NCBI GenBank assembly: GCA_903837335.1
Contig: CAILUH010000006.1
Span: forward strand, 1-35,920
Reading direction: 5' to 3'
DNA: 35,920 bases
Origin: an uncultured beta proteobacterium
GTDB lineage: Bacteria; Pseudomonadota; Gammaproteobacteria; Burkholderiales; Burkholderiaceae
The notes below the pieces were generated by a model. That model saw nothing but the letters and a program-made list of their open reading frames with translations, was not told the origin of the DNA and ran no database searches. Made by a program: the position numbers and the translations under genes. Shown piece after piece: positions 2,134 to 31,121 of this stretch; the first letter of the stretch is position 1; each line of letters opens with the position of its first letter.

Positions 2134-2145
2134 GGTGTCTCCTTC

Positions 2146-2161
2146 ATAAAAACGTTTTTAT
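2146..2161. promoter_or_regulatory. Perfect 16-bp palindrome before the binding-protein gene
   Basis: ATAAAAACGTTTTTAT reads the same on both strands and lies immediately upstream of the AGGAG ribosome site of the binding-protein gene, in the 49-bp gap after the monooxygenase. It could be an operator or an RNA hairpin affecting translation. AT-richness makes a chance origin possible, so function is only a suggestion. Confidence 0.35.
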
Positions 2162-2182
2162 ATTGAAATGAAATGCTAATTT

Positions 2183-3448: not shown

Positions 3449-3455
3449 TACGGGT

Positions 3456-3914
3456 TTAGCCTTTTACGTCTAAAGCCGCTTTTTCAGCCGCGGGATAATT
3501 GAGCTCAATGACAATCCCATTGGGGTCATCGAGGAATATTTGATGCAATTTTAAAAGTGGCACAGTACGTTCACGGTAGGGTACCGCTAGGGTTTTTAAT
3601 TTGCTCAACATGGACCCTAAGCCTGCGGCTAAAAAAGCAATGTGATCAATTGCCCCAGAGCCTTGTAGAGAGGAAAAATCACGGTCGCCTAAATATTTTT
3701 TTAAGCCCTCAGGATCATTCTTATCGATGGCAATGAGATGTAGAACTGCATTGTTGTAATCATTATCTGCACCGCTATAAAGCCAAACACCAGGAAATGG
3801 AAAATCCGGACGAGGGCCTTTTTTTAAATCTAAAACTTGGGAATAAAAAGCCACTGTTTTGTCAATTTCTAAACTACGAATAGAAAAATGATTCAGAATT
3901 AATTGCGCCATCAT
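3456..3914 (-). CDS. VOC-fold (glyoxalase/bleomycin resistance/dioxygenase) protein
   Basis: This is a 152-residue protein of the vicinal oxygen chelate superfamily. NHFSIRSLEIDKTVAFYSQVLDL opens the first beta-alpha-beta module and GAIDHIAFLAAGL opens the second. Likely metal ligands are H9, H59, H91 and E137 (IVIELNY). The H9-H91-E137 set matches the two-His-one-Glu pattern of VOC metalloenzymes. Its ATG overlaps the TetR stop (ATGA), so the two are translationally coupled, and the monooxygenase follows after 7 bp. In this operon it could be a lyase, an isomerase or a small ring-opening dioxygenase. Single-domain VOC proteins are too diverse to decide. Confidence 0.85.
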   Translation of the reverse strand: MMAQLILNHFSIRSLEIDKTVAFYSQVLDLKKGPRPDFPFPGVWLYSGADNDYNNAVLHLIAIDKNDPEGLKKYLGDRDFSSLQGSGAIDHIAFLAAGLGSMLSKLKTLAVPYRERTVPLLKLHQIFLDDPNGIVIELNYPAAEKAALDVKG

Positions 3915-4591
3915 GACCTCGCTGAAGATGTAAAGAGATTTTGTGCTGATAAAAGATAGGAATAAATTCGATCCCGAATAATTGCCTCATCCGTATCCGG
4001 CGATACCGGGCTATAAATCGCTTGACCATAGATCCAGCGGCGGATGCCAATATAAAAAATACCACCATGTAAACCCATCAAGAGCTCTAGCTCACGGTTA
4101 CTTGGCTTAGCGCGGGTATTGCGTTGACAATATTTACGGGTTTCTCGGATGAGGCGAGGGATTAAACGCGAGCGCAAGGATTCGAAAAAACGATCGCTAA
4201 TGGCGTGGTCGCTTAAGCCCGAATAAATAAGAATGCGCACAAAGTCGTAAGTGAGAACGCTGGTAGAGTAATCGAGATAAAAGGCGTTTAACTTGGCTTC
4301 TGGCTGCAGCGTTTTATCGTCTAATAAATCTTCCCATTCGGTTTTCCAGCGGCGTTCAAAAACCTCTTGATAGACCTTTTTAATCAACGCATCTTTGGTA
4401 GGAAAGTAATGGTAGAGGAGGGTATGGGTAATACCCAGTTCTTCGGTAAGGTTACGCAATTGTCCGTCCATGCCATAGCGGGCAAAAAATTGAATTGCGC
4501 CATCGATAATTTGTTTTTGCCGGTCAACTGTGTTCATCCGCCGCCGCAGAGCAGGGGGCTTGTCTAAAACTACGTTCGCGATCAATTCCAT
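3911..4591 (-). CDS. TetR/AcrR-family transcriptional regulator
   Basis: This 226-residue protein has the N-terminal TetR helix-turn-helix: QIIDGAIQFFARYGMDGQLR, then LTEELGITHTLLYHYFPTKD (about residues 49-67), ending in the YHYFPTKDAL recognition-helix signature. The remainder is a variable ligand-binding domain. It is the first gene of the leftward operon and faces the molybdenum hydroxylase genes across 110 bp, so it probably controls both directions and itself. An inverted repeat in that gap is the likely site. The track start at 4591 has no obvious ribosome site. ATG 4537 (MNTVDRQKQ, residue 19) is an alternative start that still keeps the whole DNA-binding domain. The effector is probably a pathway substrate, by inference. 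Confidence 0.9.
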   Translation of the reverse strand: MELIANVVLDKPPALRRRMNTVDRQKQIIDGAIQFFARYGMDGQLRNLTEELGITHTLLYHYFPTKDALIKKVYQEVFERRWKTEWEDLLDDKTLQPEAKLNAFYLDYSTSVLTYDFVRILIYSGLSDHAISDRFFESLRSRLIPRLIRETRKYCQRNTRAKPSNRELELLMGLHGGIFYIGIRRWIYGQAIYSPVSPDTDEAIIRDRIYSYLLSAQNLFTSSARS

Positions 4592-4612
4592 GGCTTTAAG
4601 GGTTTATCCTCA

Positions 4613-4631
4613 TTTGGTCTTATTGACCAAA
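4613..4631. promoter_or_regulatory. Candidate TetR operator: TTTGGTC-N5-GACCAAA
   Basis: A perfect inverted repeat with 7-bp arms and a 5-bp spacer lies in the 110-bp divergent region between the TetR gene and the coxG-like gene. The same half-site recurs about 25 bp further on as GACCAcTTGGTT (4654-4665) in the opposite arrangement. Size and position fit a TetR-family operator; binding is not shown. Confidence 0.6.
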
Positions 4632-4651
4632 AGTTCAATAATGGATCATTG

Positions 4652-4681
4652 TTGACCACTTGGTTGATAAGACTCTATTCG
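4652..4681 (+). promoter_or_regulatory. Possible promoter of the molybdenum hydroxylase operon
   Basis: TTGACC (4652-4657) matches a sigma-70 -35 box in five of six bases. TATTCG (4676-4681), 18 bp later, is a weak -10 box; TATAAA at 4682 is closer to consensus but too far away. The -35 box falls inside the second copy of the GACCA/TTGGT half-sites, so a bound repressor would cover it. The call is tentative. Confidence 0.3.
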
Positions 4682-4701
4682 TATAAACCCGAGGAGAATG
4701 A

Positions 4702-5175
4702 ATGGAACTTAATGGCGAGCAGTTTATTGCCGCATCTGTACCTGCTGTTTGGCGGGGCTTAAATGATGTCGCAGTCCTGGGGAAGGCTATACCTGGTTGC
4801 GAGGCAATTGAGCGCATTTCACCTGAAGAGGTACATGCAAAGGTGATGTTTAAGATTGGCCCTGTTCGCGCTCGGTTTGCTGGCAAGCTTTTACTTTCTG
4901 ATGTGATTGAAGAAAAATCGTGTTCGATGGCGTTTGAAGGATCGGGTGGTGCAGCTGGTTTTGCTAAAGGGCGCTCGCGGGTTGAATTAATTAGTGCTGA
5001 GGGAGGCACTTTGGTGAGCTTTACGACGGAGGCCTCAATTGGCGGGAAGTTAGGGCAAATTGGGGGCCGACTCATTAGCGCTTCGGCAAAAAAAATTGCT
5101 GATGATTTTTTTGAAGCTTTCGCCAAAGAATTAAATCCACTCGCTAGTGAAATCACCGATGGGGGAGAAGCATGA
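4702..5175 (+). CDS. CoxG-like SRPBCC-family protein (carbon monoxide dehydrogenase subunit G family)
   Basis: This 157-residue protein is of the CoxG family. It opens with MELNGEQFIAASVPAVWRGL, continues with the VLGKAIPGCEAIERI segment typical of CoxG, and has an amphipathic C-terminal region (GGRLISASAKKIADDFFEAF). CoxG proteins have an SRPBCC (START-like) hydrophobic-pocket fold. In carboxydotrophs one helps anchor the molybdenum hydroxylase to the membrane, and homologues accompany many non-CO xanthine-dehydrogenase-family enzymes. A GAGGAG ribosome site lies just before the ATG. Its stop overlaps the next ATG (ATGA), so it is coupled to the FAD subunit. It is the first gene of the rightward operon, possibly under the TetR gene opposite. 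Confidence 0.85.
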   Translation: MELNGEQFIAASVPAVWRGLNDVAVLGKAIPGCEAIERISPEEVHAKVMFKIGPVRARFAGKLLLSDVIEEKSCSMAFEGSGGAAGFAKGRSRVELISAEGGTLVSFTTEASIGGKLGQIGGRLISASAKKIADDFFEAFAKELNPLASEITDGGEA

Positions 5176-6029
5176 AAGCGGCAGCATTTGATTACATTAA
5201 AGTGCAATCGATTCCTGAGGTTTTGGCTTTAATGCGAGAGCACGGCGATGATGCGCGTTTAATTGCTGGCGGCCAAACATTATTGGCTACCTTAAACATG
5301 CGCTTATCCGAGCCGCAGTTACTAATTGATATTACGGAACTTACCGAATTAAAAGGCATTGAATTAAGTGGCGAGCATTTATGGGTCGGGGCTTTGGTAA
5401 CGCATACTGAAATTGAAGACGCCGCCCTAATTAAGAAATACGCACCAATTTTACAAGCAGCAGCCCCGCACATTGCGCATCGGGCTATTCGTAACTTGGG
5501 TACTTGGGGTGGTTCACTAGTGTATGGAGATCCAGCGGCAGAGTGGCCAGCTTGTAGTATTGCGGTGAATGCAGCAATGGTCGTACGCGGTTTGCAGGGC
5601 GAGCGTCGTATTCCAGCGCGCGATTTTTTTGTCGATCTATACACCACTGCTTTAGCACCAGATGAAATTTTAATGGGTACCGAAATTCCCTTGGCAAACG
5701 CAAAAGACGTTTTCTCTTTTCAAGAATTGGCGCGGCGCCATGGCGACTATGCTGTAGCAGGCTTAGCTGCGGTAGCAAAAAAAACCGGTCAAGCTCTTAG
5801 CGACTGTAACTTTGTTTTTTTCTCTGTAGCTACTACGCCGGTAGCTGCGGTACAAGCGCAAAATCTAGTCAATGGCCAAGTGGTGAACGCTGAATTAATC
5901 ACTGCAGCAGTTGCAGTGGCACGTGCGGAGATTGAAACCATGGAGGATATAACCAACAGCGCAGCAGCAAAAAGTCATTTGGTAGGCGTACTGCTAGAGC
6001 GCGCTTTAAAAAAAATGTTGGCTGATTAA
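5172..6029 (+). CDS. Xanthine dehydrogenase-family FAD-binding (medium) subunit
   Basis: This 285-residue medium subunit of a molybdenum hydroxylase carries FAD and passes electrons from the iron-sulphur subunit to an acceptor. IAGGQTLLATLNMRL (31-45) and TWGGSLVYGDPAAEWP (111-126) are the two FAD pyrophosphate-binding loops of the CoxM/CutM family. The usual AGG[QT]SL and T[IL]GG patterns are present with Trp in the second (TWGGS). Length is normal for the family. It overlaps the coxG-like stop by 4 bp and is followed by the 2Fe-2S subunit after 41 bp. The order G-M-S-L differs from the M-S-L order of classical cox operons only by the leading G gene. Confidence 0.93.
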   Translation: MKAAAFDYIKVQSIPEVLALMREHGDDARLIAGGQTLLATLNMRLSEPQLLIDITELTELKGIELSGEHLWVGALVTHTEIEDAALIKKYAPILQAAAPHIAHRAIRNLGTWGGSLVYGDPAAEWPACSIAVNAAMVVRGLQGERRIPARDFFVDLYTTALAPDEILMGTEIPLANAKDVFSFQELARRHGDYAVAGLAAVAKKTGQALSDCNFVFFSVATTPVAAVQAQNLVNGQVVNAELITAAVAVARAEIETMEDITNSAAAKSHLVGVLLERALKKMLAD

Positions 6030-6070
6030 ATTAGAGCGTCTTGCGCTAGAGTTAATTAAGGAAAATAAGA

Positions 6071-6556
6071 ATGAATCCAAAAATTCCGATTGATATGATT
6101 GTGAATGGAAATAGAGTCCAGGCTGAAATCGAGCCACGCCGTCACTTGGTTGATTTTTTAAGGGAAGATTTAGGCTTAAAGGGCCCTCACTTGGGCTGCG
6201 AACAGGGCGCCTGTGGCGCATGTACCGTGCGGGTCGACGGACAAATCGTGCGTGGTTGCTTGTATTTAGCAGTACAAGCCAATGGCAAAGTGGTTGATAC
6301 CGTAGAGGGCTTAACTGCACAAGGTGCCTTAACTGAATTACAAGATGCTTTTATGCGGCGCAATGCTATGCAATGCGGGTTTTGCTCTTCGGGCATGTTG
6401 TTGTCGGCTGCTGAATTGATTGAGCAGCAACCTCAAGCTACGCGCGAGCAAGTGCGCGAGTGGATTTCTGGCAATTATTGTCGTTGTACTGGCTACCATT
6501 CTATTGTGGATGCCATCATGGATGTATTGGAGGCGCAGCGTGAACAAACCGAATGA
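6071..6556 (+). CDS. Xanthine dehydrogenase-family 2Fe-2S (small) subunit
   Basis: This 161-residue small subunit has two [2Fe-2S] clusters. The plant-ferredoxin-like N-terminal cluster uses C43, C48, C51 and C63 (LGCEQGACGACTV then RGC). The alpha-helical C-terminal cluster uses C102, C105, C137 and C139 (QCGFCSSGM and YCRCTGY). All eight ligands are present, so the subunit should be functional. AAGGAAAA before the ATG is the probable ribosome site. Its last 17 bp overlap the start of the large-subunit gene, implying coupled translation. It relays electrons from the molybdenum centre to the FAD subunit. Confidence 0.95.
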   Translation: MNPKIPIDMIVNGNRVQAEIEPRRHLVDFLREDLGLKGPHLGCEQGACGACTVRVDGQIVRGCLYLAVQANGKVVDTVEGLTAQGALTELQDAFMRRNAMQCGFCSSGMLLSAAELIEQQPQATREQVREWISGNYCRCTGYHSIVDAIMDVLEAQREQTE

Positions 6557-8936
6557 TCTTGCAGGATTAGTACTTGATCCTGTTACTGCCGACCAACGTT
6601 ACATTGGCGAGAGTGAGCCACGCCGTAGTGCCAAACGCTTATTAGAGGGCCAAGGTACGTATGTTGATGATCTACAGTTTCCACGTATGGGTCATGTGGT
6701 GTATTGGCGTTCGCCGGTTGCGCATATGCAGATTTTGCAAATCCATACTGCCGCAGCGCGTAACATGCCAGGCGTTTTAGCGGTCGTAGATGGTGTACAG
6801 ATGGCGACCATCTGCAAGCCTTGGGTCGCTACTTTAAGTCATCTTGCTGGGATGAAATCAGCCCCGCAACACGCTTTAGCGATTGAACGCGCTTGCTGGC
6901 AAGGGGAGCCCGTAGTTGCAGTAGTCGCAGATACCCGTGCACAAGCCGAAGATGCTTTACAACTCATTGAGGTGGAATGGGAGGAGTTACCTGCCGTGGT
7001 CTCTATGCTGACTGCTTTAGATCCTGAAACACCTTTGATTCATCCGGAGTTAGGCGATAACCTGTGTTTTAGTCGCACTCTAGATGTAGGACAGGTCGAT
7101 GCGCAGTTTGCGACTGCCGAGATTGTGGCTGAAGCTACTTTTGGGTTTGGACGACATACCGGGGTTACGCTTGAGCCCCGTTGTCAAATTGCAGATTACA
7201 ACCCCGGCGATGGTCGCTTAACGGTCTATCATTCGCAGCAAGCCCCGCACATGATGCAAGATCTCTATTGCCGGCAATTTGGTTTGGCTGAATCGGATGT
7301 GCATGTCATTTGTAAAGATGTTGGTGGTTCATTTGGGATTAAAGTGCACGCCTATCCCGATGATTTTGCAACTGTTGGTTTGGCTATTTTATTAGGGCGC
7401 CCCATTAAATTTGTGGCTGACCGTCTAGAGTCATTTACCAGCGATATTCATGCTCGTGAACATCAAGTGAAGGGACGTATTGCAGTTAATAAGCAGGGCG
7501 ATATTTTGGCTTTCGAGATTGATGATCTCACAGCAATTGGCCCCTATTCAATGTTCCCGCGCACCAGTGCAATTGAAGGCAATCAAGTGGTTAACTTAGT
7601 TGGCGGCCCTTATAAGCACCAACATTATCGCGCCCAACTGCAGGTGGTGTTTCAAAATAAAACCCCCACTTGTCAATACCGCGGCGTAGGTCATCCCATC
7701 GCTTGTGCTGTTACAGAAGGTTTAGTGGATTTAGCAGCAGAAAAATTACAAATGGACCCTTTAGCTTTTCGGCGGCGCAATGTGATTCCGGATGATGCCT
7801 ATCCATGCTCGGGAGCCTCGGGAATTAAGTTAGAAATTCTCTCGCATGAACAATGTTTGCGCACCATTGAAAAAATGATGAATTACACCGAATTGCGCCA
7901 AGAGCAAGCCACGCTTCGAAAAAAAGGCATTTATCGGGGTATCGGTTTTGCTGCCTTAATTGAATTAACCAATCCCAGTGCAGCATTTTATGGTGTTGGC
8001 GGGGCCCGCATTGCTTCGCAAGATGGCGCTACGGCTAGACTCGACCCATCAGGGGTGGTGAGTATTATGGTGGGTGTAGGTGAACAGGGCCAAGGCACCG
8101 AAGGTATATATGCGCAAATTGCCGCGGATGCCGTTGGAGTGCCGATTACAGATGTGCGGATTATTACGGGTGATACGGCCGTAACTCCTTATGGGGGTGG
8201 CACCTGGGCATCCCGTGGCGCTGGAATTGGTGGCGAAGCAGTGTTGTTAGCAGCGCAGGCTTTACAAGAAAATATTTTGCGTTTAGCTGGCGCTATTTTG
8301 CAGCGTGATACCGCTGAATTGCTGGTGCGACGGAGTCAAATTATTGATAAAGCGACCGGCCAAGCAGTGCTACCATTTTCAGAAATAGGGCGCATTGGTT
8401 ACTTCCGTACCGATACCCTTCCAAATGATTTTAAAGTGGACTTAATGGTGACCCGCCATTATGCACAACGGGATTATCCATTTATCTTTACCAATGGCGT
8501 ACAAGCCTCTTACGTTGAAGTAGATATCGATACCGGGTTTGTTACTTTGCTTAAGCATTGGGCAGTTGAAGATTGTGGGCGGGTATTGAACCCGATGTTG
8601 GTAGATGAGCAAGTTCGCGGGGCAATTGTGCAAGGCATCGGTGGCGTACTCTATGAAGAGTGTCTTTATGATGACAGCGGCCTGTTACGCAATGGGAATA
8701 TGGCTGATTATTTGGTGCCCATGGCAAATGAAATGCCCGATATTGAAGTGGCACATGTCCAAACACCTACGGCCTCTTCGCAATTAGGGGCCAAAGGCGC
8801 TGGTGAAGCTGGTACTGCTGGCGCACCAGCGGCGGTGATGAATGCCATTAACGACGCCTTAATGCCATTTAACGTTAAGGTATTTGAGCAGCCCATTACC
8901 TCGGAAAAAATTCTTCGCGCCTTAGGCAAAATTTAA
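6540..8936 (+). CDS. Xanthine dehydrogenase-family molybdopterin-binding (large) subunit, not CO dehydrogenase
   Basis: This is a 798-residue catalytic subunit carrying molybdopterin cytosine dinucleotide in this family. I place the start at GTG 6540, not the track start 6420, because TTGGAGG precedes it by six bases and the upstream reading would add a hydrophobic tail lying inside the 2Fe-2S gene. Landmarks are GGSFGIK (262-268), the active-site loop CQYRGVGHP (378-386) and the conserved GEAG with the probable catalytic base E756. The AYRCSFR loop of form I CO dehydrogenase is absent, so CO oxidation is very unlikely. Relatives hydroxylate aldehydes, purines or N-heteroaromatics. Maturation genes (XdhC/CoxF type) are not in the window. 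The substrate is undetermined. Confidence 0.93.
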   Translation: MNKPNDLAGLVLDPVTADQRYIGESEPRRSAKRLLEGQGTYVDDLQFPRMGHVVYWRSPVAHMQILQIHTAAARNMPGVLAVVDGVQMATICKPWVATLSHLAGMKSAPQHALAIERACWQGEPVVAVVADTRAQAEDALQLIEVEWEELPAVVSMLTALDPETPLIHPELGDNLCFSRTLDVGQVDAQFATAEIVAEATFGFGRHTGVTLEPRCQIADYNPGDGRLTVYHSQQAPHMMQDLYCRQFGLAESDVHVICKDVGGSFGIKVHAYPDDFATVGLAILLGRPIKFVADRLESFTSDIHAREHQVKGRIAVNKQGDILAFEIDDLTAIGPYSMFPRTSAIEGNQVVNLVGGPYKHQHYRAQLQVVFQNKTPTCQYRGVGHPIACAVTEGLVDLAAEKLQMDPLAFRRRNVIPDDAYPCSGASGIKLEILSHEQCLRTIEKMMNYTELRQEQATLRKKGIYRGIGFAALIELTNPSAAFYGVGGARIASQDGATARLDPSGVVSIMVGVGEQGQGTEGIYAQIAADAVGVPITDVRIITGDTAVTPYGGGTWASRGAGIGGEAVLLAAQALQENILRLAGAILQRDTAELLVRRSQIIDKATGQAVLPFSEIGRIGYFRTDTLPNDFKVDLMVTRHYAQRDYPFIFTNGVQASYVEVDIDTGFVTLLKHWAVEDCGRVLNPMLVDEQVRGAIVQGIGGVLYEECLYDDSGLLRNGNMADYLVPMANEMPDIEVAHVQTPTASSQLGAKGAGEAGTAGAPAAVMNAINDALMPFNVKVFEQPITSEKILRALGKI

Positions 8937-8988
8937 GTTTTTTTAAGTCCTGTACTATTGCTAATCTTCATATCAAATTGCGAGAATA

Positions 8989-9768
8989 ATGATGTCTTTT
9001 TTAAGCGGAAAAATTGCTTTAGTGACTGGCTCAACCAGCGGGATTGGATTAGCTATAGCTAAGGCCTTGGCACAGCAAGGCGTTCACGTCATGATGAATG
9101 GTTTTGGTGAAAAAGAAGCTGCCCTAGCAGAGGTTAAAGCCTTTGGAGTAGAAGTAGATTATCACGGCGCTGATATGAGTAAGCCTAAAGAAATTGAAGA
9201 CTTGATTCTGGCAGTTGAAAAACGTTTTGGGTCGCTCGATATTTTAGTCAACAATGCCGGTATTCAGCATGTCGATAAAATTGAAGATTTTCCGGCAGAA
9301 AGATGGGAAGCCGTGATTGCGATTAATCTCAGCTCAGCCTTTTATGCGAGCCACTTTGCTTTACCAGCAATGAAGAAACGTAACTGGGGTCGCATTATTA
9401 ATATTGCTTCAGTGCATGGTTTAGTAGGATCAGCTGATAAGTCGGCTTATGTTGCAGCTAAACATGGAATTATTGGTCTTACAAAAGTAACTGCCTTAGA
9501 AAATGCGCGCACTGGAATTACTTGCAATGCGATTTGCCCAGGTTGGGTACTCACTCCGTTAGTGCAAAAGCAGGTTGATGCGCGCGCTGAACGTGAACAT
9601 ATTTCCAATGAAGCTGCCAAAATTGCTTTGGTCTCTGAGAAGCAGCCTTCAGGCGAGTTCGTCAAGCTAGAGCAGTTGGGTGCGTTAGCCGTCTTCCTCT
9701 GTGGACCAGATGCCTCAGAGGTTAGGGGTGCCGCTTGGAATATGGATGGTGGTTGGGTAGCCCAATAA
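8989..9768 (+). CDS. bdhA: 3-hydroxybutyrate dehydrogenase (short-chain dehydrogenase)
   Basis: This 259-residue cytoplasmic NAD-dependent SDR interconverts 3-hydroxybutyrate and acetoacetate. Visible motifs are TGSTSGIG (13-20), NNAG (88-91), catalytic N113, S141, Y154 and K158, and the HBDH-typical segments YVAAKHGIIGLTKVTALE and CNAICPGWVLTPLVQKQ. The C-terminus GGWVAQ is also typical. Length is normal. The start is at 8989 or the adjacent second Met at 8992. It lies 52 bp after the molybdenum hydroxylase in the same direction and could be part of that operon or belong to polyhydroxybutyrate turnover; the gap holds no clear terminator. The lyase-like gene converges on it with 5 bp between stops. 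Confidence 0.92.
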   Translation: MMSFLSGKIALVTGSTSGIGLAIAKALAQQGVHVMMNGFGEKEAALAEVKAFGVEVDYHGADMSKPKEIEDLILAVEKRFGSLDILVNNAGIQHVDKIEDFPAERWEAVIAINLSSAFYASHFALPAMKKRNWGRIINIASVHGLVGSADKSAYVAAKHGIIGLTKVTALENARTGITCNAICPGWVLTPLVQKQVDARAEREHISNEAAKIALVSEKQPSGEFVKLEQLGALAVFLCGPDASEVRGAAWNMDGGWVAQ

Positions 9769-9773
9769 AACAA

Positions 9774-10694
9774 CTATTGCTGTGGTGCTGCATGTAGCCG
9801 ATCAACCTTACCAGCCATCAGTAGCTGGCTAGGCAGTCTTCGCCCAATGAGGGTTTGCAAGTCCCCCGAGCATTCCAGCAGCAGGTCTAAATTGATATTG
9901 GTAGCGTAGCCCATTAAATCCAACATATGCACTAATTCTTCGGTGCAAATATTACCGGTTGCGCCTGGTGCGTAAGGACAACCTCCCAAGCCACCCAGAG
10001 ATGAATCAAAGCGCACTATGCCGGCCTCAACTGCTGCTAAAGCATTTGCTAGACCCATGCCGCGCGTATTGTGAAAGTGTAAGGTCCATTGGATATGCGG
10101 ATACTTATCTTGTACCACTAAGCAAATGGCTTTGACTTGCGCCGGGTTTGCCATTCCAGTGGTATCGCATATCGTTAGTCCGCGTACCCCTAAATTAGCA
10201 AAGTAATCAATCCAATACATCAGGTCTTGAAGACTGATTGTTCCAGCGATAGGGCAACCAAAGCTAGTGGATAAAGAAACGTTACTCGCTATACCTGCTT
10301 GGTTGGCAAAGGCAATGACCGCATTTAGTGCAGCAGCAGAATCCGTCCGACTCATGCGCAAATTAGCTTGGTTATGAGCCTCACTTACCGACATCACCAA
10401 ATTAAACTCGTCGACCTGAACTTCGGCGGCGCGTTGCGCGCCTTTTAAATTTGGAATAAGGGCGGTATATTCCACTTCTGGCTGACGCGTGATGCCTTGC
10501 ATCACTTGTTCGGCATCCGCCAACATGGGAATTGCCTTGGGGCTGGTAAATGAGCTTACTTCAATTTTTGCGTAGCCGGCATTACTCAGTCGATTAATGA
10601 GCCGAATTTTTTCAGCCGTAGGCACGAACTGAGCTTCAGCCTGAAAGCCATCGCGTGTCACAACTTCCTGGATAAACAGGCGTTTAGGGCTCAT
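9774..10694 (-). CDS. HMG-CoA lyase-family aldolase (hydroxymethylglutaryl-CoA lyase-like)
   Basis: This 306-residue TIM-barrel lyase belongs to the DRE-TIM family, which cleaves 3-hydroxy-3-methylglutaryl-CoA or related citramalyl-type CoA esters to acetyl-CoA and an oxo product. Motifs are RDGFQ (14-18; classical enzymes have RDGLQ), metal ligands D15, H206 and H208 (LHFHNTRG), and the signature GLGGCPYAPGA with catalytic C239. The RDGFQ and EVSSFTSPKAIPM pattern marks a Burkholderiales subgroup whose substrate may not be HMG-CoA. It converges with the 3-hydroxybutyrate dehydrogenase gene; both handle acetoacetate if the substrate is HMG-CoA. The family is secure, the exact substrate is open. 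Confidence 0.88.
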   Translation of the reverse strand: MSPKRLFIQEVVTRDGFQAEAQFVPTAEKIRLINRLSNAGYAKIEVSSFTSPKAIPMLADAEQVMQGITRQPEVEYTALIPNLKGAQRAAEVQVDEFNLVMSVSEAHNQANLRMSRTDSAAALNAVIAFANQAGIASNVSLSTSFGCPIAGTISLQDLMYWIDYFANLGVRGLTICDTTGMANPAQVKAICLVVQDKYPHIQWTLHFHNTRGMGLANALAAVEAGIVRFDSSLGGLGGCPYAPGATGNICTEELVHMLDLMGYATNINLDLLLECSGDLQTLIGRRLPSQLLMAGKVDRLHAAPQQ

Positions 10695-10774
10695 TTTTAA
10701 GAAGGATAATGATAGTTAGAAGGGTGTAAGTACCTATTTTAATTGAGAATAGCGGATTTCTGGCGTTTGCGTAC

Positions 10775-10789
10775 GGAAGATGCTCTTCC
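10775..10789. promoter_or_regulatory. Inverted repeat GGAAGA-N3-TCTTCC in a divergent promoter region
   Basis: A perfect 6-bp-arm inverted repeat lies in the 154-bp gap between the divergent lyase gene and the Urate_ox_N gene. It could be an operator. No other signal in the gap is convincing, and a repeat of this length can arise by chance. Confidence 0.25.
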
Positions 10790-10848
10790 CTGAATCGTTT
10801 ATAGTTACTGCGAATCAAACCGATTGTTTATCAACAGGAGAATTTAAG

Positions 10849-11445
10849 ATGGCTTCAATTCTGACTTCATTAGGGCGTACGGTACTAGCCGGCTTTATCC
10901 TTTTGCTCATTATTATTTTTGCGTTCGGCGGCTTTGCTGGTAATAGCTGGACCTTGTTTACCTTTCGTTGGTTGCATGTCACCTCTGGGGTAATGTGGAT
11001 TGGTTTGTTGTGGTACTTTAATTTTGTCCAAATTCCTTCGATGCCTAAAATTCCTGATGAGCAAAAGCCAGCCATTAGTAAAGTGATTGCCCCTGCGGCT
11101 TTATTTTGGTTTCGCTGGGCAGCTTTAGCAACGGTCGTTACTGGTTTGCTAGTCGCCATTATTAGCGGTTATGTACATCAAGCGTTTACTTTACAGCCAG
11201 CTTTCCGCGCCATTGGGTTGGGAATGTGGATCGCTTTAATTATGGCCTTTAATGTTTGGTTCATTATTTGGCCTAATCAAAAACGGGCCCTGGGAATAGT
11301 GGCAGTTGAGCCTGCTGTCAAGGCAAAATCGGCTCGCGTAGCGATGCTAACTTCACGCATTAACACCGTGTTATCAATCCCAATGTTATTTTTAATGAGC
11401 GCCCAATCCCATAATCAAGGTTGGTTTGTGGCAATCATTTCCTAA
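10849..11445 (+). CDS. Membrane protein with urate hydroxylase PuuD-type N-terminal domain (Urate_ox_N)
   Basis: This 198-residue integral membrane protein has about five hydrophobic segments. RWLHVTSGVMWIGLLWYFNF resembles the Urate_ox_N (DUF989) domain of the membrane urate hydroxylase PuuD, whose conserved histidines lie in the membrane. PuuD itself is about twice as long and ends in a cytochrome c domain; here no CxxCH is present, so this is the membrane part alone. I start at ATG 10849, with AGGAG eight bases upstream, rather than the track start at 10780. Urate metabolism is not otherwise visible. It may be a stand-alone redox or quinone-interacting membrane protein. Confidence 0.75.
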   Translation: MASILTSLGRTVLAGFILLLIIIFAFGGFAGNSWTLFTFRWLHVTSGVMWIGLLWYFNFVQIPSMPKIPDEQKPAISKVIAPAALFWFRWAALATVVTGLLVAIISGYVHQAFTLQPAFRAIGLGMWIALIMAFNVWFIIWPNQKRALGIVAVEPAVKAKSARVAMLTSRINTVLSIPMLFLMSAQSHNQGWFVAIIS

Positions 11446-11450
11446 GTTGG

Positions 11451-11468
11451 TAAATCTTTAAAGATTTA
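11451..11468. other. Perfect 18-bp palindrome TAAATCTTTAAAGATTTA
   Basis: It lies six bases after the Urate_ox_N stop and just before the bidirectional terminator. Both strands read identically. It may be a protein site or simply an AT-rich accident; no gene start is near it. Confidence 0.35.
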
Positions 11469-11474
11469 AGTTAC

Positions 11475-11512
11475 AAAAAACCCACCGCAGAAATCTGTCG
11501 GTGGGTTTTTTT
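11475..11512. terminator. Bidirectional intrinsic terminator
   Basis: AAAAAACCCACCG and CGGTGGGTTTTTTT form a strong stem with an A-run on one side and a T-run on the other. It lies between convergent genes (Urate_ox_N on plus, rubredoxin reductase on minus), so it can end transcription from both. Confidence 0.92.
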
Positions 11513-11525
11513 ATTAGCTTGCCCA

Positions 11526-12698
11526 CTAAATTAAAACAGGGGGTAGTAATTTAGCTAAGGCGGCGCGCTCGGTCGTTGCGGTACCAACTAAGGCAAAGCC
11601 CAATAGCTCACCAGTGACACTTTTAAAGCAGGCTTTCATACCACCTTCTTGGGCGATCGACTCCCAGGTACCCACGGCATCTTTTGCAGGGGGAGAGACC
11701 ACGATTGGCATAGCAGGTGTTTTTACCATCACTGGCATTGCGGGGTAGAGTACAGTTGCTTCTTGTCCTAATAAATTGGGAGCTAAGGCGCGCGCAGCTT
11801 GCATAAGGGGCATGACATACGGCAGAACTAAGCCATCTACTTCGGCGCAATCACCCAATGCATATACTTCAGGTGCAGAAGTTTCAAGCCGACGATTAAC
11901 CTGAATACCCTGCTTAATGCTGAGGCCAGCTAACTTTGCTAAAGTGGTACGCGGTCGCAAACCGACTGCGGAGAGAACCACATCGCTTTGTAAGCGCACA
12001 CCATTTTTTAATTGCACCACTAGAGCATCTTCATGATAGGAAATGGTTTCAATGGTGGTTTCAAAATGCCAGCTTACGCCAGCCTGAGTTAATTCTCTTT
12101 TTAGCTCTTCAGCAGCGCTACTTGGTAGTAGGCGCCCCAGCGGCTGGCTAGCTAAATCAATCACATCGACGGTGTAACCTCCAGCAATTAAATCATTAGC
12201 AAACTCAGTGCCAATTAAACCTGCGCCTAAAATTGCGATACGTTTTTTATTAGTAATGCGCTCGCGAAAAGAGCGATATTCCTCTAAGTCATTTACTGAA
12301 ATCACTTGATCTGCCGCATTTCCTTGCAAGGGCAAGCGAATTTGATCGGCACCCAATGCTAAAACTAATTTGGCATACCCAATCCTGCCTGAAGAGCTGG
12401 TAATACATTGATTTTTAATGTCGATTGCGGTGACCTCAGTATGCGCCAAAATAGTAATACCTAATTGCGCTGCCATTTCTTCACATGAGCCAGTAATTAA
12501 TTGCATGGGCTCTTTTTTTCCAGCAATCGCAGTCGAGAGCATCGGTTTCGAATAAAAGTAAGCTGGCTCACGCGTGATTAAAGTGACAGATATATCTTTA
12601 TTTAATTTGCGAATTTCGCGAATGACGGTGTAACCCGCTAAACCACTACCGATAATGACTATTGGTGCCTCGATCTTAACCAATTTGGACCATTTCAA
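11526..12698 (-). CDS. rubB: Rubredoxin reductase-like FAD/NAD(P)-dependent oxidoreductase
   Basis: This 390-residue two-dinucleotide-domain flavoprotein has FAD site [12 protein letters not shown] (13-24), NAD site [16 protein letters not shown] (about 152-167) and the second FAD motif [12 protein letters not shown]. It should pass electrons from NAD(P)H to rubredoxin, which can feed an alkane hydroxylase or oxygen-detoxifying enzymes. The track start at 12698 is a TTG, lying inside the 3' end of the rubredoxin gene. No ATG is available before the FAD motif; TTG 12683 is a second choice. The 23-bp overlap suggests translational coupling and a fixed ratio of the two partners. No alkane hydroxylase is in the window. 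Confidence 0.88.
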
Positions 12699-12843
12699 AA
12701 TCCGATTTTGCTACACCGCAATCGGGGCATGCCCAGCTATCGGGCACATCAGCCCAAACAGTACCGGGTGCCAACCCATCCTCCGGCAAGCCTAGGGCTT
12801 CATCATAAATAAAGCCACAAACGATACATTGCCACATTTTCAT
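12676..12843 (-). CDS. rubA: Rubredoxin (55 aa, not in ORF track)
   Basis: Reading the minus strand from ATG 12843 gives a 55-residue protein beginning [18 protein letters not shown] and containing [16 protein letters not shown]. The two CxxCG motifs (C6/C9 and C39/C42) are the four iron ligands of rubredoxin, and length and spacing are standard. It is a small cytoplasmic one-electron carrier. An alternative start is the ATG two codons later (12837). It overlaps the rubredoxin reductase gene by 23 bp and was missed by the track because of its length. Confidence 0.96.
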
Positions 12844-12944
12844 GGAAAACCTTTCAAGATATTAAGATAATTAGAGATTGAATGAGTCAGAGTTTATGTC
12901 ATTGCTGTTACGATCGAGTACTAATTTTTTATTAAGGATGAATG

Positions 12945-25596: not shown

Positions 25597-25615
25597 GCTA
25601 ATAAGAATCATTCTC
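25597..25615. promoter_or_regulatory. Fur box 1
   Basis: Aligned to GATAATGATAATCATTATC, the sequence GCTAATAAGAATCATTCTC matches 15 of 19 bases. It lies 36 bp upstream of the porin start and in the shared porin/feoAB control region. Fur with Fe2+ would repress from here. Confidence 0.8.
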
Positions 25616-25627
25616 AATATAATAGCT

Positions 25628-25646
25628 TATAATGATAATCATTCTT
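25628..25646. promoter_or_regulatory. Fur box 2
   Basis: TATAATGATAATCATTCTT matches 16 of 19 bases of the Fur consensus, including an unbroken run of 15 (ATAATGATAATCATT). It lies 61 bp before feoA and one half-turn-related step (31 bp) from box 1, so cooperative Fur binding over both promoters is likely. Confidence 0.9.
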
Positions 25647-25707: not shown

Positions 25708-25956
25708 ATGAAACCCATGACTGTGAACCATCTACCTACCGGCTCAGTAAGTCAGGTTGAGCGGGTAAATGCGCCGAGTAATAAGCCAGAATTAGCGCAA
25801 CAATTAGAAGATATTGGGTTTTTACCCGGCGAGCAGGTAACTGTTTTGCGACGTAGCCTACTGGGTGACCCTTTAATGGTACGAATTGGTTCTTCAACCT
25901 TTGCTTTACGGCGCGCCGAGGCTCAATTGATTGAGGTGGCAAATATCTCTCAATGA
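25708..25956 (+). CDS. feoA: Ferrous iron transport protein FeoA
   Basis: This 82-residue SH3-like cytosolic partner of FeoB shows the FeoA core: LAQQLEDIGFLPGEQVTVLR, LLGDPLMVRIGSSTFALRRAEA. Length is standard. Met 4 (25717) is an alternative start. Its end overlaps the feoB start by 4 bp. Transcription is probably Fur controlled from the two boxes upstream. No feoC gene follows. Confidence 0.93.
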   Translation: MKPMTVNHLPTGSVSQVERVNAPSNKPELAQQLEDIGFLPGEQVTVLRRSLLGDPLMVRIGSSTFALRRAEAQLIEVANISQ

Positions 25957-27842
25957 AATCAAGCAAGATTCATTTTTTTGATCGTGATCCACTGCTAGCA
26001 TTATTAGGTAATCCTAATTGCGGTAAAACAGCACTCTTTAATCTACTCACTGGTAGTCGGCAAAAAGTTGCTAATTACGCAGGTGTAACCGTGGAGCGCA
26101 AAGAGGGGCGTCTTACCTTAGCCTCTGGTAAATCACTGCGCATTCTCGATCTACCGGGCGCCTATAGTTTATATCCCCGTTCGCTTGATGAGCGGGTTAC
26201 TTGCAATGTACTGCTCGGGCGTGCCGAAGGCGAAAAGCGCCCTGATTTAGTTTTATGCGTATTAAATGCCACAAATCTGCGGAGAAATTTACGGTTGGTG
26301 TTGGCAGCAAAACGCTTAGGTTTACCTTGCATTGTTTTGCTCAATATGTCAGACATTGCTAAGCGCAACGGCTTAAAGATTCATAGTGCTGATTTAGCCG
26401 CCGAATTGGGTTTGCCAGTGATACCTACGGTTGGCGTAAATGCACATGGCGTTGATGACTTAAGGACTTATTTAGAAGAGCTTGACTGGCTGAATTTACC
26501 AGTATCAACGACGCAAATAAATACCCTGACGAATTACACTGAAACTGATAATCAGCGCGTCCAGCACATATTAGAAAAATTAGCACTCAATGAACTTGTG
26601 CCAGATGTCTTGGCCGATCGTCTCGATCGTGTTTTGCTGCAGCCAATATTAGGCCCCATTATTCTTATTGCGCTACTATTTTTTATTTTTCAGGCGGTCT
26701 TTAGTTGGGCTACTATGCCGATGGAAGCAATTAAGTGGGCCGTTGATGCCACGGCAAGTTTCTTAAGCAGTCATATGCCAGATTCCTGGTTACGCAGCTT
26801 ACTTATTAATGGCATTTTGGCAGGCTTAGGTGGTGTGTTGGTATTTTTACCGCAAATTTTAATCCTCTTCTTTTTTATTTTGTTGCTTGAGGAATCGGGT
26901 TACCTGCCACGCGCCGCTTTTTTATTGGATCGCTTAATGGCAACGGTTGGTTTATCGGGCCGTTCTTTTATTCCCTTGCTGTCAAGTTTTGCGTGCGCTA
27001 TTCCGGGCATCATGGCGACGCGGAGTATTTCTAATCCACGCGATCGTCTGGTAACTATCTTAATTGCGCCGATGATGACGTGTTCGGCACGCTTACCTGT
27101 TTATGCTTTATTAATTTCCGCCTTTATTCCAAACCAAAAGTTATGGGCCACTCTTGATTTGCAGGGTCTCGTCTTATTTTTGCTATATCTTATGGGTATT
27201 GTTGGGGCAATGGCGGTAGCGTGGATTTTGAATCATTTTACTAGTAAACAATTTCAAGTACATGCTTTGATGATGGAACTACCAAGTTATCATTTGCCGC
27301 GTTTGGGTAATTTATTGACTAGTTTATGGCAGCGCTGTGAAATATTTTTGCGTCGGGTAGGCGGGATCATTTTTATCCTCACAGTATGTCTATGGGCGCT
27401 CTCTAGTTTTCCTGCGCCACCACTCGGTGCCAGTGGCGCGCCGATTGAATATAGTTTTGCGGGGATGCTGGGGAAAGCGCTAGCAGTGCTTTTTCAGCCG
27501 ATTGGGTTTAACTGGCAAATTAGTATCGCCTTGGTACCGGGCCTGGCTGCGCGTGAGGTGGTCGTTAGTTCACTAGCCACAGTTTATGCTTTATCCGCAG
27601 CAAATAATAATACGAGTGAAGCCTTGATTCCCTTAATTTCGCAAGCATGGAGCTTAGCCACGGCTCTTTCTTTACTGGCTTGGTTTGTCTTTGCGCCACA
27701 ATGCCTTTCAACTATTGCCGCAGTTAAGCGTGAAACAGGTGGGTGGAAAATTCCCCTGATTATGCTCAGCTATTTATTTGCTTTGGCTTACTTAGCTTCT
27801 TTTGTGACCTATCAAATTGCGCTTCTTTTTGGATGGGGCTAA
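25953..27842 (+). CDS. feoB: Ferrous iron transporter FeoB
   Basis: This 629-residue inner-membrane Fe2+ transporter has an N-terminal G-domain. G1 is GNPNCGKT (19-26), G2 threonine is T46 in NYAGVTVE, G3 is DLPGAYSL (66-73) and G4 is LNMSD. The membrane domain contains the Gate motifs with conserved cysteines (SSFACAIPGIMATR and APMMTCSARLPVY) and LVPGLAAREVVVSS. It is shorter than the 773-residue E. coli protein, as in many betaproteobacteria, mainly in the linker and C-terminus. It is coupled to feoA. Confidence 0.96.
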   Translation: MKSSKIHFFDRDPLLALLGNPNCGKTALFNLLTGSRQKVANYAGVTVERKEGRLTLASGKSLRILDLPGAYSLYPRSLDERVTCNVLLGRAEGEKRPDLVLCVLNATNLRRNLRLVLAAKRLGLPCIVLLNMSDIAKRNGLKIHSADLAAELGLPVIPTVGVNAHGVDDLRTYLEELDWLNLPVSTTQINTLTNYTETDNQRVQHILEKLALNELVPDVLADRLDRVLLQPILGPIILIALLFFIFQAVFSWATMPMEAIKWAVDATASFLSSHMPDSWLRSLLINGILAGLGGVLVFLPQILILFFFILLLEESGYLPRAAFLLDRLMATVGLSGRSFIPLLSSFACAIPGIMATRSISNPRDRLVTILIAPMMTCSARLPVYALLISAFIPNQKLWATLDLQGLVLFLLYLMGIVGAMAVAWILNHFTSKQFQVHALMMELPSYHLPRLGNLLTSLWQRCEIFLRRVGGIIFILTVCLWALSSFPAPPLGASGAPIEYSFAGMLGKALAVLFQPIGFNWQISIALVPGLAAREVVVSSLATVYALSAANNNTSEALIPLISQAWSLATALSLLAWFVFAPQCLSTIAAVKRETGGWKIPLIMLSYLFALAYLASFVTYQIALLFGWG

Positions 27843-27920: not shown

Positions 27921-28742
27921 ATGCCACTCATAGCAAAAAAAGAATATTTACAGATCAGCTTAGTTGGTTTGTGGATTTTTATTGCTAACGGAGTAAGTGC
28001 CGCCAGCGTACAAGAGCAAATGGATCAATCGCCAGAAGTGAAGGCAGCCATAATCGAGCTAGTATTGGCTAATCATATTTTGTACGATCAAAATGCAGTT
28101 GATGGTTATGGTCATATCAGTATTCGTAATCCAATTAATCCGAATACCTTCTTTTTGGCACGTAGTGTTGCTCCCTCTTTGGCACAGATTAGCGATGTCA
28201 TGGAATTTGATATGGATGGTAAGGCGTTAAACGGCGATACTCGTGTGGCTTATGGCGAGCGCTTTATTCATAGCGGCATTTTGCGTAATCGTCCAGATAT
28301 TAATTCAGTTGTGCATGGCCATGCCGCATCCATCTTGCCTTATGGGTTAACGCAAGGTAATTTAAAGCCTGTTTATCATATGAGCGCTTTTTTAGGTGAA
28401 GGAACACCGATTTTTGAAATTCGGGAGTTTGCGCAACCAAGCCCAGATACTGATATGTTTATTAGTAACCCTACTTTAGGTCAAGCACTAGCAAAGACGA
28501 TGGGCCAAAAGAATTTTGTGCTGATGCGCGGGCATGGTTATGCCGCCGCAGGAGAGTCGATACGTCAGGTTGTCTTTCGTTCGGTTTATGCGATTCAAAA
28601 TGCAACCATTCAAACAGAAGCAAGTAAGATGGGTAAGGTCCAATATTTAACGGCTGAAGAAGCAAAAAAATCTCAAGCAACTATTGAAAAAACAATCAAT
28701 CGTCCATGGGAATTATGGAGTTTACGGGTGGGTGGTAAGTAA
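27921..28742 (+). CDS. Class II aldolase/adducin-family protein with signal peptide
   Basis: This 273-residue protein has the class II aldolase fold: VDGYGHISIRNP, the GERFIHSGIL metal/acid segment, VVHGHAASILPYG (H132, H134) and RGHGYAAAG (H205) as metal ligands. A hydrophobic N-terminal segment (LQISLVGLWIFIANGVSA-AS) looks like a Sec signal, placing a normally cytoplasmic enzyme in the periplasm. A similar exported subgroup exists in other proteobacteria, as I recall. GGAGAG lies before the ATG. Its stop overlaps the HAD gene start (TAATG). Substrate unknown, perhaps a hydroxy acid or sugar acid. Confidence 0.85.
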   Translation: MPLIAKKEYLQISLVGLWIFIANGVSAASVQEQMDQSPEVKAAIIELVLANHILYDQNAVDGYGHISIRNPINPNTFFLARSVAPSLAQISDVMEFDMDGKALNGDTRVAYGERFIHSGILRNRPDINSVVHGHAASILPYGLTQGNLKPVYHMSAFLGEGTPIFEIREFAQPSPDTDMFISNPTLGQALAKTMGQKNFVLMRGHGYAAAGESIRQVVFRSVYAIQNATIQTEASKMGKVQYLTAEEAKKSQATIEKTINRPWELWSLRVGGK

Positions 28743-29440
28743 TGTCCTTGCAAGTATTAGCATTTGATGTTTTTGGAACCGTTGTCGATTGGCACGGTTC
28801 AATTACAGAAGAAGTTTCTCAAATGAATCTAAACGTTGATCCGTTGGCATTTGCCACTGCTTGGCGTGATGGCTATAAGCCTGCGATGGCGCGGGTGCGT
28901 TCAGGCGAGTTGCCCTGGACGCGTATCGACGATTTACACTTTATGATTCTTGAGCAAGTGCTGCTGCAGTTCGGTATCACCACATTAAGTGAAACGCAGA
29001 AAAGAGATCTCAATCGGGTATGGCATCGACTAGCTGCATGGCCTGATGCCGTTTTGGGTTTACAACAGCTCAAAAGTAAATACACTATTGTCACTTTATC
29101 GAATGGCAATTTAGGTTTATTGGCTGAGATGGCAAAAAATGCTGACTTACCCTGGGATTTGATTTTATCGGCCGAAGTATTTCGCCATTACAAACCTGAT
29201 CCAGAAACCTATTTGGGGGTAGCGGCTACCTTTGATATTGCCCCCGAGCAGGTAATGCTGGTAGCCACCCATAAAGACGATTTATTAGCGGCCCATAAAC
29301 TCGGTCTGAAAACAGCGTTTGTTGAGCGGCCCTTTGAGCATGGACCCAATCATTTGCGTCAAGATATGCAAGTAGAGACTTGGACTGATTTTCATGCTAA
29401 AGATTTTCTCGACTTAGCACGTCAACTTGGTGCGCACTAA
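28742..29440 (+). CDS. Haloacid dehalogenase type II (HAD superfamily)
   Basis: This 232-residue HAD hydrolase has nucleophile D9 in LAFDVFGTVVDW, the TLSNGN motif II and the FRHYKPDPETY lysine/acid region. VATHKDDLLAAHKLGLKTAFV closes the active site. These match type II 2-haloacid dehalogenases, though many such proteins act on phosphoesters instead. It overlaps the aldolase stop by 1 bp and its own 3' end overlaps the start of the Bug protein gene, so the three form a tight operon. Confidence 0.88.
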   Translation: MSLQVLAFDVFGTVVDWHGSITEEVSQMNLNVDPLAFATAWRDGYKPAMARVRSGELPWTRIDDLHFMILEQVLLQFGITTLSETQKRDLNRVWHRLAAWPDAVLGLQQLKSKYTIVTLSNGNLGLLAEMAKNADLPWDLILSAEVFRHYKPDPETYLGVAATFDIAPEQVMLVATHKDDLLAAHKLGLKTAFVERPFEHGPNHLRQDMQVETWTDFHAKDFLDLARQLGAH

Positions 29441-30479
29441 TTTCCCAGTGCAAAACCGTTTTCAATTGCTAGTCAATTTACTATTTAGTTTGGCATTTAG
29501 CCTTTTTAGTACCGTAAGTTACGCGCAAGCCAATGCCAATAAAAGTACTGTGGGTAGCAGCCCAATAACAGATACAGTAGTTTGGCCTAAAAAGCCGATT
29601 CATCTGGTCGTGAGCTTTACACCTGGGGGCGCACCGGATACTTTGGCTCGTATTTTGGCTGATAGTTGGCAGAAAACGCTGGGAGTAAGCGTCTTAGTTG
29701 AAAATCGTCCTGGTTTTGGCGGCAATATTGGTGCCGACTATGTAGCTAAGAGCGAGGCAGACGGCTATACCTTGTTAATTGGCACGGTTGGCATTCATGC
29801 AATTAACGGTGTGCTTTACGAGAAATTGAGCTATGATCCTAGCCGCGACTTTGCGCCGATTAGTTTTTTAGCTAGCACCCCTAATGTATTGGTGGTGAAT
29901 AAAAAATTAGCTGCTAATAACTTAAGCGAACTCATCACCCTAGCAAAAGCAGAGCCCAATCAACTGACTTTTGGTTCTTCGGGGTCAGGTACTTCGCTGC
30001 ACATGTCGGGCGAGCTATTAAAAGAAATGACCGGAATCCAAATTCGCCATATTCCCTATAAGGGACGAGCGCAATTTTTGCCCGACCTTGTTAGTGGGCG
30101 CATTAATATCGCCTTTGATAATTTGGCTTCGGCTTTGCCATTGATACAGGCAAATGAAATCCGCGCTATTGGCGTTACTTCAGTGCGACGCTCTGCAGCT
30201 GCACCCGATATTCCAACCATCGCCGAGCAAGGGCTGCCTGGATTTGAAGCAGTTTCTTGGTTTGCCTTAGTCGGCCCAATGGGTCTGCCTACTGTTGTAC
30301 AGAATCGACTAAGCCAACTTACTAAAGAAACTTTGCTCCAGCCCACCGTACAAACTAAATTAAGGGCTAGTGGTCTTGAGCCTGCGCCAAATAGCCCCGT
30401 GGAATTAGCGCGTTTTATTGATCAAGAACGGGAAAAATGGGCTGTAATTGTGAAAAAGTCGGGTGCCAAGGCCGATTAG
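29427..30479 (+). CDS. Tripartite tricarboxylate transporter-type substrate-binding protein (TctC/Bug)
   Basis: This protein of up to 350 residues belongs to the Bug family, which is expanded in Burkholderiales. The signal is LLVNLLFSLAFSLFSTVSYA-QA; the core is PIHLVVSFTPGGAPDTLARIL and ENRPGFGGNIGADYVAKSEADGYT. The FTPGGAPD loop binds the carboxylate of ligands in Bug proteins. The start is a TTG at 29427 or GTG at 29430, inside the end of the dehalogenase gene; GTG 29448 is also possible. No TctA/TctB membrane genes are nearby. It may deliver a carboxylate handled by the two enzymes before it. Confidence 0.9.
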   Translation: MVRTNFPVQNRFQLLVNLLFSLAFSLFSTVSYAQANANKSTVGSSPITDTVVWPKKPIHLVVSFTPGGAPDTLARILADSWQKTLGVSVLVENRPGFGGNIGADYVAKSEADGYTLLIGTVGIHAINGVLYEKLSYDPSRDFAPISFLASTPNVLVVNKKLAANNLSELITLAKAEPNQLTFGSSGSGTSLHMSGELLKEMTGIQIRHIPYKGRAQFLPDLVSGRINIAFDNLASALPLIQANEIRAIGVTSVRRSAAAPDIPTIAEQGLPGFEAVSWFALVGPMGLPTVVQNRLSQLTKETLLQPTVQTKLRASGLEPAPNSPVELARFIDQEREKWAVIVKKSGAKAD

Positions 30480-30596: not shown

Positions 30597-31121
30597 ATGC
30601 AAAAAATGATAGAACCTAATTTAACCCAAGCTGAATTTTATCCGCACCCCTTTTTTGGGAAAACAGCCATTATTATTTTGGCAGTTCTATTCGGATTTAT
30701 TGGTTTATCTCACACTAGTCATGCCCAGGCTGGAGCTCATGGTGGTTGGCGGGGCGGGAACGGTAGCGGAGCTGTATGGAATGTTGGCTGGCGCGGAGGA
30801 CCCGCTTACGGTTATGGTGGTGGATATCGTTATGGCTATGGTGGTGGATATCGTTACGGTTATGGTTGGGGCTACCCCTATGCGGTTGCCCCCATTGTTG
30901 TCGGTGCCGGATTTTATGGTGCGCCTGCTTATCCCTATGCCGCTCCATTAGTATATGCACCTCCCGAGCCAATGGTTATGGTTTCTCAACCTCAGCCGAA
31001 CGTTTGGTATTACTGCGCATCGAGTAAAGCCTATTTCCCCTATGTACAGAGTTGTGCAACTGATTGGCAGGTTCTGCCGGCTATGCCGCCCTCTAGTGCA
31101 CATGAAGTAAAGCCGCAATAA
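30597..31121 (+). CDS. Exported Gly/Tyr-rich protein with WYYC...YYPYV-type C-terminal motif
   Basis: This 174-residue protein has a hydrophobic export segment (TAIIILAVLFGFIGLSHTSHA-QA), a Gly/Tyr-rich repeat region (YGYGGGYRYGYGGGYRYGYG) and a C-terminal motif VWYYCASSKAYFPYVQSC with two cysteines. The motif is common in small betaproteobacterial envelope proteins of unknown role. GGAGGGAA supports the ATG. It lies just upstream of a glycine-zipper lipoprotein gene in the same direction. The DNA holds an imperfect 24-bp tandem repeat. Confidence 0.75.
   Translation: MQKMIEPNLTQAEFYPHPFFGKTAIIILAVLFGFIGLSHTSHAQAGAHGGWRGGNGSGAVWNVGWRGGPAYGYGGGYRYGYGGGYRYGYGWGYPYAVAPIVVGAGFYGAPAYPYAAPLVYAPPEPMVMVSQPQPNVWYYCASSKAYFPYVQSCATDWQVLPAMPPSSAHEVKPQ
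30813..30860 (+). repeat. Two 24-bp tandem repeat units (coding)
   Basis: Two units of TATGGTGGTGGATATCGTTA followed by TGGC or CGGT encode YGGGYRYG twice. They differ at two positions. A third partial unit (TATGGTTGGGG) follows. This is recent repeat expansion inside a Gly/Tyr-rich region. Confidence 0.85.

Follow-up and report, generated by a model that had tools for sequence, protein, structure and literature searches.

We find that three abutting genes, which encode a class II aldolase-fold enzyme (ALD), a haloacid-dehalogenase family protein (HAD) and a TctC/Bug receptor (BUG), probably form a patchwork and not one pathway. An exported ALD resembling 3-hydroxy-2-methylpyridine-4,5-dicarboxylate decarboxylase (HMPDdc), an enzyme of vitamin B6 degradation, would have been parted from its usual receptor and would now sit beside a separate HAD-BUG pair. 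The genes lie in a stretch of 35,920 nucleotides (the window; contig CAILUH010000006.1 of assembly GCA_903837335.1) from a Polynucleobacter-type genome (G000), and the same-genus relatives are Polynucleobacter. The initial annotation had described three genes that overlap or touch, and we recovered all of them as intact open reading frames, end to end on one strand (Table 1). The ALD stop and HAD start share a TAATG at 28740-28744, and a BUG start at the TTG at 29427 would give it a 14-bp overlap with HAD, with a GTG at 29430 or a later codon as a possible alternative start. The family assignments are well above threshold (ALD against PF00596, 81.1 bits with a gathering cut-off of 22.2; HAD against TIGR01428, 158 bits with a curated cut-off of 125.4; BUG against PF03401, 237 bits with a cut-off of 27). 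BUG combines its TctC domain with an N-terminal leader, and its description as a carboxylate-binding protein holds.

Table 1. Features of the three-gene locus and its upstream region, in window positions.
Feature	Coordinates	Strand	Description
Fur-box-like site, second and weaker	25597-25615		15/19 match, upstream of feoA
Fur-box-like site	25628-25646	+	16/19 match to GATAATGATAATCATTATC, upstream of feoA
feoA	25720-25956	+	PF04023, 69.6 bits; stop overlaps the feoB start
feoB	25953-27842	+	Ferrous iron transporter; TIGR00437, 479 bits; marks the conserved left edge of the variable region
ALD	27921-28742	+	Predicted exported class II aldolase/adducin-fold enzyme, HMPDdc-like; PF00596
ALD signal peptide	27921-28001	+	Predicted Sec-type, 27 aa; cleavage after GVSA, mature start ASVQEQM; core KD 2.53
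HAD	28742-29440	+	Predicted cytoplasmic type II haloacid-dehalogenase family protein; TIGR01428
BUG	29427-30479	+	Periplasmic carboxylate receptor of the TctC/Bug family; own signal peptide; PF03401

The data support the earlier proposal that the aldolase-family protein is exported. We compared 33 orthologue rows (about 27 of them distinct) from 14 of 49 same-genus genomes, Noviherbaspirillum galbum and several metagenome-assembled genomes, and all 33 carry a short, hydrophobic, fast-evolving and mostly positively started leader that ends in an A-x-A-like site before A[STN]VQEQ. Averaged over pairs, the 18 residues that precede the site are 25% identical and the 62 that follow it are 88% identical. 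Because the leader has diverged while the mature start is conserved, ALD is predicted to carry a Sec-type signal peptide, a call based on leader features and this conservation contrast and not on a dedicated signal-peptide predictor. Within the genus and order, most homologues at 40-51% identity have no leader, and a few in other genera have leaders of their own, with an RR motif at four loci (L129, L131, L138 and L139) and without a clear one at two (L143 and L151). The RR-type, Tat-like leaders in other Burkholderiales suggest that export recurs in the family. Searches of the literature gave no relevant report of an exported class II aldolase; to our knowledge, characterized enzymes of this fold are normally regarded as cytoplasmic.

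The nearest solved structure to ALD is 2z7b (Mlr6791; 186 bits, E = 6.5e-54), with all others at 49 bits or less. In the alignment, H132, H134 and H205 correspond to the metal-binding His triad of the superfamily and E113 to its catalytic Glu, and all four are invariant in 13 orthologues. None of the curated NCBIfam equivalogs (FucA, PhtC and others) is reached, the best scores being 69, 67 and 33 against cut-offs of 255, 200 and 264, respectively. Mlr6791, or HMPDdc, is a Mn(II)-dependent decarboxylase (PMC11841055). The label 'aldolase' is loose, because the closest characterized relative is a decarboxylase. Judged by its family, ALD is most likely a periplasmic metal-dependent lyase or decarboxylase that would cleave C-C bonds of oxo- or hydroxy-carboxylates, by decarboxylation or by an aldol/retro-aldol reaction. 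An AlphaFold2 model built from 13 close orthologues had a mean pLDDT of 47.7. A Polynucleobacter proteome study names a class II aldolase, Pnuc_1545 (PMC7522526), which we could not match to ALD.

Comparisons with relatives did not sustain the assertion that genes which touch must share a function: the linkage is absent in relatives, an outcome that the initial annotation itself had named as a refutation. In the closest relative (G037), the order is feoB-HAD-BUG and ALD is missing, at identities of 95% for FeoB, 90% for HAD and 92% for BUG, and its 90-93% DNA similarity to the window on both sides breaks exactly at ALD. A second relative (G001) has lost feoAB and ALD and carries HAD-BUG behind a feoA-like leader. 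Among the 49 same-genus genomes, ALD occurs in 14, HAD in 17 and both in six (one-sided P = 0.33), and the two genes abut in the window only; in G026 and L038 they are separated by about 2-2.5 kb, and in four other genomes (G011, G012, G018 and G034) they are far apart. The HAD orthologues of G037 and G001 have about 18 more N-terminal residues than the shorter HAD of the window, which indicates that the overlap of ALD with HAD originated within this lineage. ALD may have been gained by transfer in the window lineage or lost in G037; a gain takes fewer events and agrees with the truncated start of HAD. A tree of ALD did not resolve the branching of the window, Noviherbaspirillum and the genus clade.

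In relatives, ALD belongs to a different unit. At nine Polynucleobacter loci, it shares 1 or 4 bp with the gene of another receptor, Bug1, and a divergent fumarylacetoacetate-hydrolase-family (FAH) gene usually lies beside it; these overlaps predict that ALD is translationally coupled to Bug1. The usual partners of ALD are consequently Bug1 and FAH, and not HAD and BUG. One genome (G012, locus L114) has the FAH-bug1-ALD unit away from feoB. The clearest functional context is found in N. galbum (L026), where a GntR-family gene and FAH-bug1-tctB-tctA come after an ALD with 77% identity. Its Bug1 shares a mean of 63% identity with the Polynucleobacter Bug1 group when itself included, about 59% when left out, and 29-31% with BUG. 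At the same locus (2520-11588), a tannase/feruloyl esterase gene lies about 1.7 kb upstream of ALD. In the window genome, we found no Bug1 match at E 1e-60, an uncertain absence in a 295-contig assembly that is 96.7% complete; an FAH of the c13 group remains elsewhere in it (75%).

The interval between feoB and a glycine-zipper/MATE pair varies among these relatives. It can hold an FAH with a Tat leader, a divergent FAH, bug1-ALD, an outer-membrane-like protein, further Bugs, HAD, SemiSWEET, another FAH, a lipoprotein alpha/beta hydrolase, an enoyl-CoA hydratase family gene, a DsbB-like gene and a BUG orthologue, and the window has a reduced version of it. At one locus (L108), the FAH-family protein with a Tat leader (4927-5970) and the alpha/beta hydrolase with a lipobox (11812-12864) suggest several exported catabolic enzymes. 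Elsewhere in the window, positions 30597-31121 encode a small protein that looks exported, has Gly/Tyr-rich repeats (YGGGYRYGYGGGYRYGYG) and gave no Pfam match. Positions 895-8936 read like another catabolic cluster, in which open reading frames resemble, by eye, a branched-chain-type binding protein, an FAD monooxygenase, a VOC protein, a TetR-type regulator and a three-subunit molybdenum hydroxylase.

BUG itself is widespread, with orthologues in 42 of the 49 same-genus genomes that usually lie 4-8 kb from ALD or elsewhere, and it is only 30% identical to Bug1. The 2.0-Mb window genome has about 40 TctC/Bug genes and only two TctA genes, both outside the window, which contains neither TctA nor TctB. 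Because Bug genes are so numerous, a Bug neighbour is a weak sign of a specific link. At eight of 11 distant ALD-family loci, a Bug nevertheless lies within about 1.5 kb, as compared to 1.7 loci expected, although these loci are not fully independent and the densities come from first-look candidate counts. Because this association is above chance, proximity to a Bug of any kind may be relevant to ALD.

HAD has the catalytic residues common to type II L-2-haloacid dehalogenases and epoxysuccinate hydrolases (D9, R42, N121, H177 and E199), and its TIGR01428 family also includes epoxide hydrolases. It aligns end to end with 3umc (E = 2.1e-64) and with its second-best solved relative, Rha0230 of RHA1 (3umg), which is an L-2-haloacid dehalogenase (PMC12184663). 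HAD is apparently active and nearer to the PA0810/Rha0230 subgroup, since the catalytic triad is present but two pocket residues of the epoxysuccinate hydrolases differ. We found no leader or export signal in HAD, which is therefore predicted to be cytoplasmic and apart from ALD.

The initial annotation combined the three genes into a dedicated operon, in which exported ALD and HAD would process an unusual hydroxy- or halo-carboxylate and BUG would import it. The genes do abut on one strand, ALD has its signal peptide and HAD exceeds the cut-off for type II haloacid dehalogenases, with an L-2-haloacid dehalogenase among its relatives (3umg; PMC12184663). This arrangement is quite improbable, however, as the trio occurs in this genome only, the closest relative has no ALD, ALD and HAD show no co-occurrence and would act in different compartments, and ALD is paired with Bug1 elsewhere. 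A more novel reading, which we consider less likely than not, is a periplasmic module in which ALD would decarboxylate or cleave a plant- or humus-derived carboxylate, Bug1 would capture the product and an FAH-family enzyme would finish the reaction inside; the fuller cluster in relatives would add the Tat-exported FAH and the lipoprotein alpha/beta hydrolase. The co-orientation and overlapping ends of the three genes, which allow co-translation here, count against a patchwork. Together, the shared 10-15 kb neighbourhood of ALD, HAD and BUG orthologues in G026 and the roughly 2-kb ALD-HAD spacing in L038 make a loose functional tie possible.

Two further explanations invoke iron, although neither feoAB nor the Fur-box-like site figured in the initial annotation. 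Directly upstream of ALD and on the same strand, feoAB ends 78 bp before it, and our scan found no terminator-like site in this gap; across the promoter and terminator scans, sites were no more numerous than in shuffled sequences. The stronger Fur-box-like site is the single match in the window at its score (0.02 expected). Both adjacent sites (25597-25646) are kept in G037, where the stronger is identical, and in each of the other relatives compared the best-scoring site that precedes feoB matches at 13-16 of 19 positions, as compared to a usual best of 10-13 in shuffled sequence. In G037, HAD starts 12 bp after feoB, and in G001, HAD-BUG directly follows the remaining feoA leader, with a weaker Fur-box-like site. 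An iron-regulated feoAB-ALD-HAD-BUG unit, serving iron-carboxylate uptake or carboxylate handling under iron limitation, would account for this layout. We consider it unlikely, because opposite-strand genes break up the region in relatives without deletions, copies of ALD and HAD also exist far from feoB, and the position may be passively inherited. FeoB itself is 74-78% identical in most relatives. It is very improbable that ALD is an Fe(II)-dependent relative of pyruvic oxime dioxygenase (POD) that sits beside feoAB for its iron supply. PODs are Fe(II) enzymes with a class II aldolase fold (PMC11841055, PMC5216522), ALD weakly matches 8iqa, 8il8 and 8ix6 (E of about 1e-10 to 1e-12), and feoAB with its Fur-box-like site lies upstream. 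Yet PODs conserve Gln53 and have lost the glutamate of the FucA Glu73 type (PMC11841055), while in the alignment ALD has His65 in place of Gln53 and keeps that glutamate as E113. ALD also scores far lower against PODs than against HMPDdc, and the ALD-Bug1 pair also occurs away from feoB (L114). A role in heterotrophic nitrification was set aside on the two active-site residues, His65 and E113.

In our preferred explanation, the patchwork, the trio would be a remnant, put together recently, of a variable region for carboxylate use between feoAB and the glycine-zipper/MATE pair of Polynucleobacter. Elsewhere, ALD would work with its dedicated TTT receptor, Bug1, and a cytoplasmic FAH-family enzyme. 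In this lineage, ALD would have lost Bug1 or been separated from it, and would have been relocated behind the Fur-box-preceded feoAB, where it adjoins the pair formed by a cytoplasmic type II HAD and a Bug from a different orthologous group. We infer that all three genes are probably transcribed together, possibly with read-through from the feoAB promoter. Abutting genes in such genomes can thus be chance assemblies. The conserved exported ALD branch, with a TTT receptor of its own, provides a case in which catabolic chemistry that precedes import could be tested in these abundant freshwater bacteria, where Bug receptors number in the dozens.

Compared to known systems, the trio is a modest variant and not a new system. 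The match to HMPDdc (2z7b) spans nearly the whole mature ALD and includes the E..H, HxH and late H residues and an HMxAFxGE stretch; ALD differs from HMPDdc in its signal peptide and its TTT receptor partner. The 3,4-dihydroxyphthalate decarboxylase PhtC (NF053537) has the same fold and is the second-best NCBIfam model for ALD, at 67 bits, but this score is far under the equivalog cut-off of 200. HAD shares the nucleophile Asp, SNG, Lys, AxH-motif His and RPxEhGP stretch of the type II L-2-haloacid dehalogenases PA0810 (3umc) and Rha0230 (3umg). The cis-epoxysuccinate hydrolases have an Asp-His-Glu triad (PMC10869282), which in the CESH[L] type (for example, 8wmt) corresponds to D9, H177 and E199 of HAD, but their pocket Gln and Tyr (Q50 and Y223 of KlCESH) are replaced by F11 and D179. 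BUG matches the Bug/TctC receptor 5oei and the terephthalate-binding protein 8hka over its full length (261 and 258 bits, respectively), and it differs from a complete tripartite tricarboxylate transporter in having no TctA or TctB beside it.
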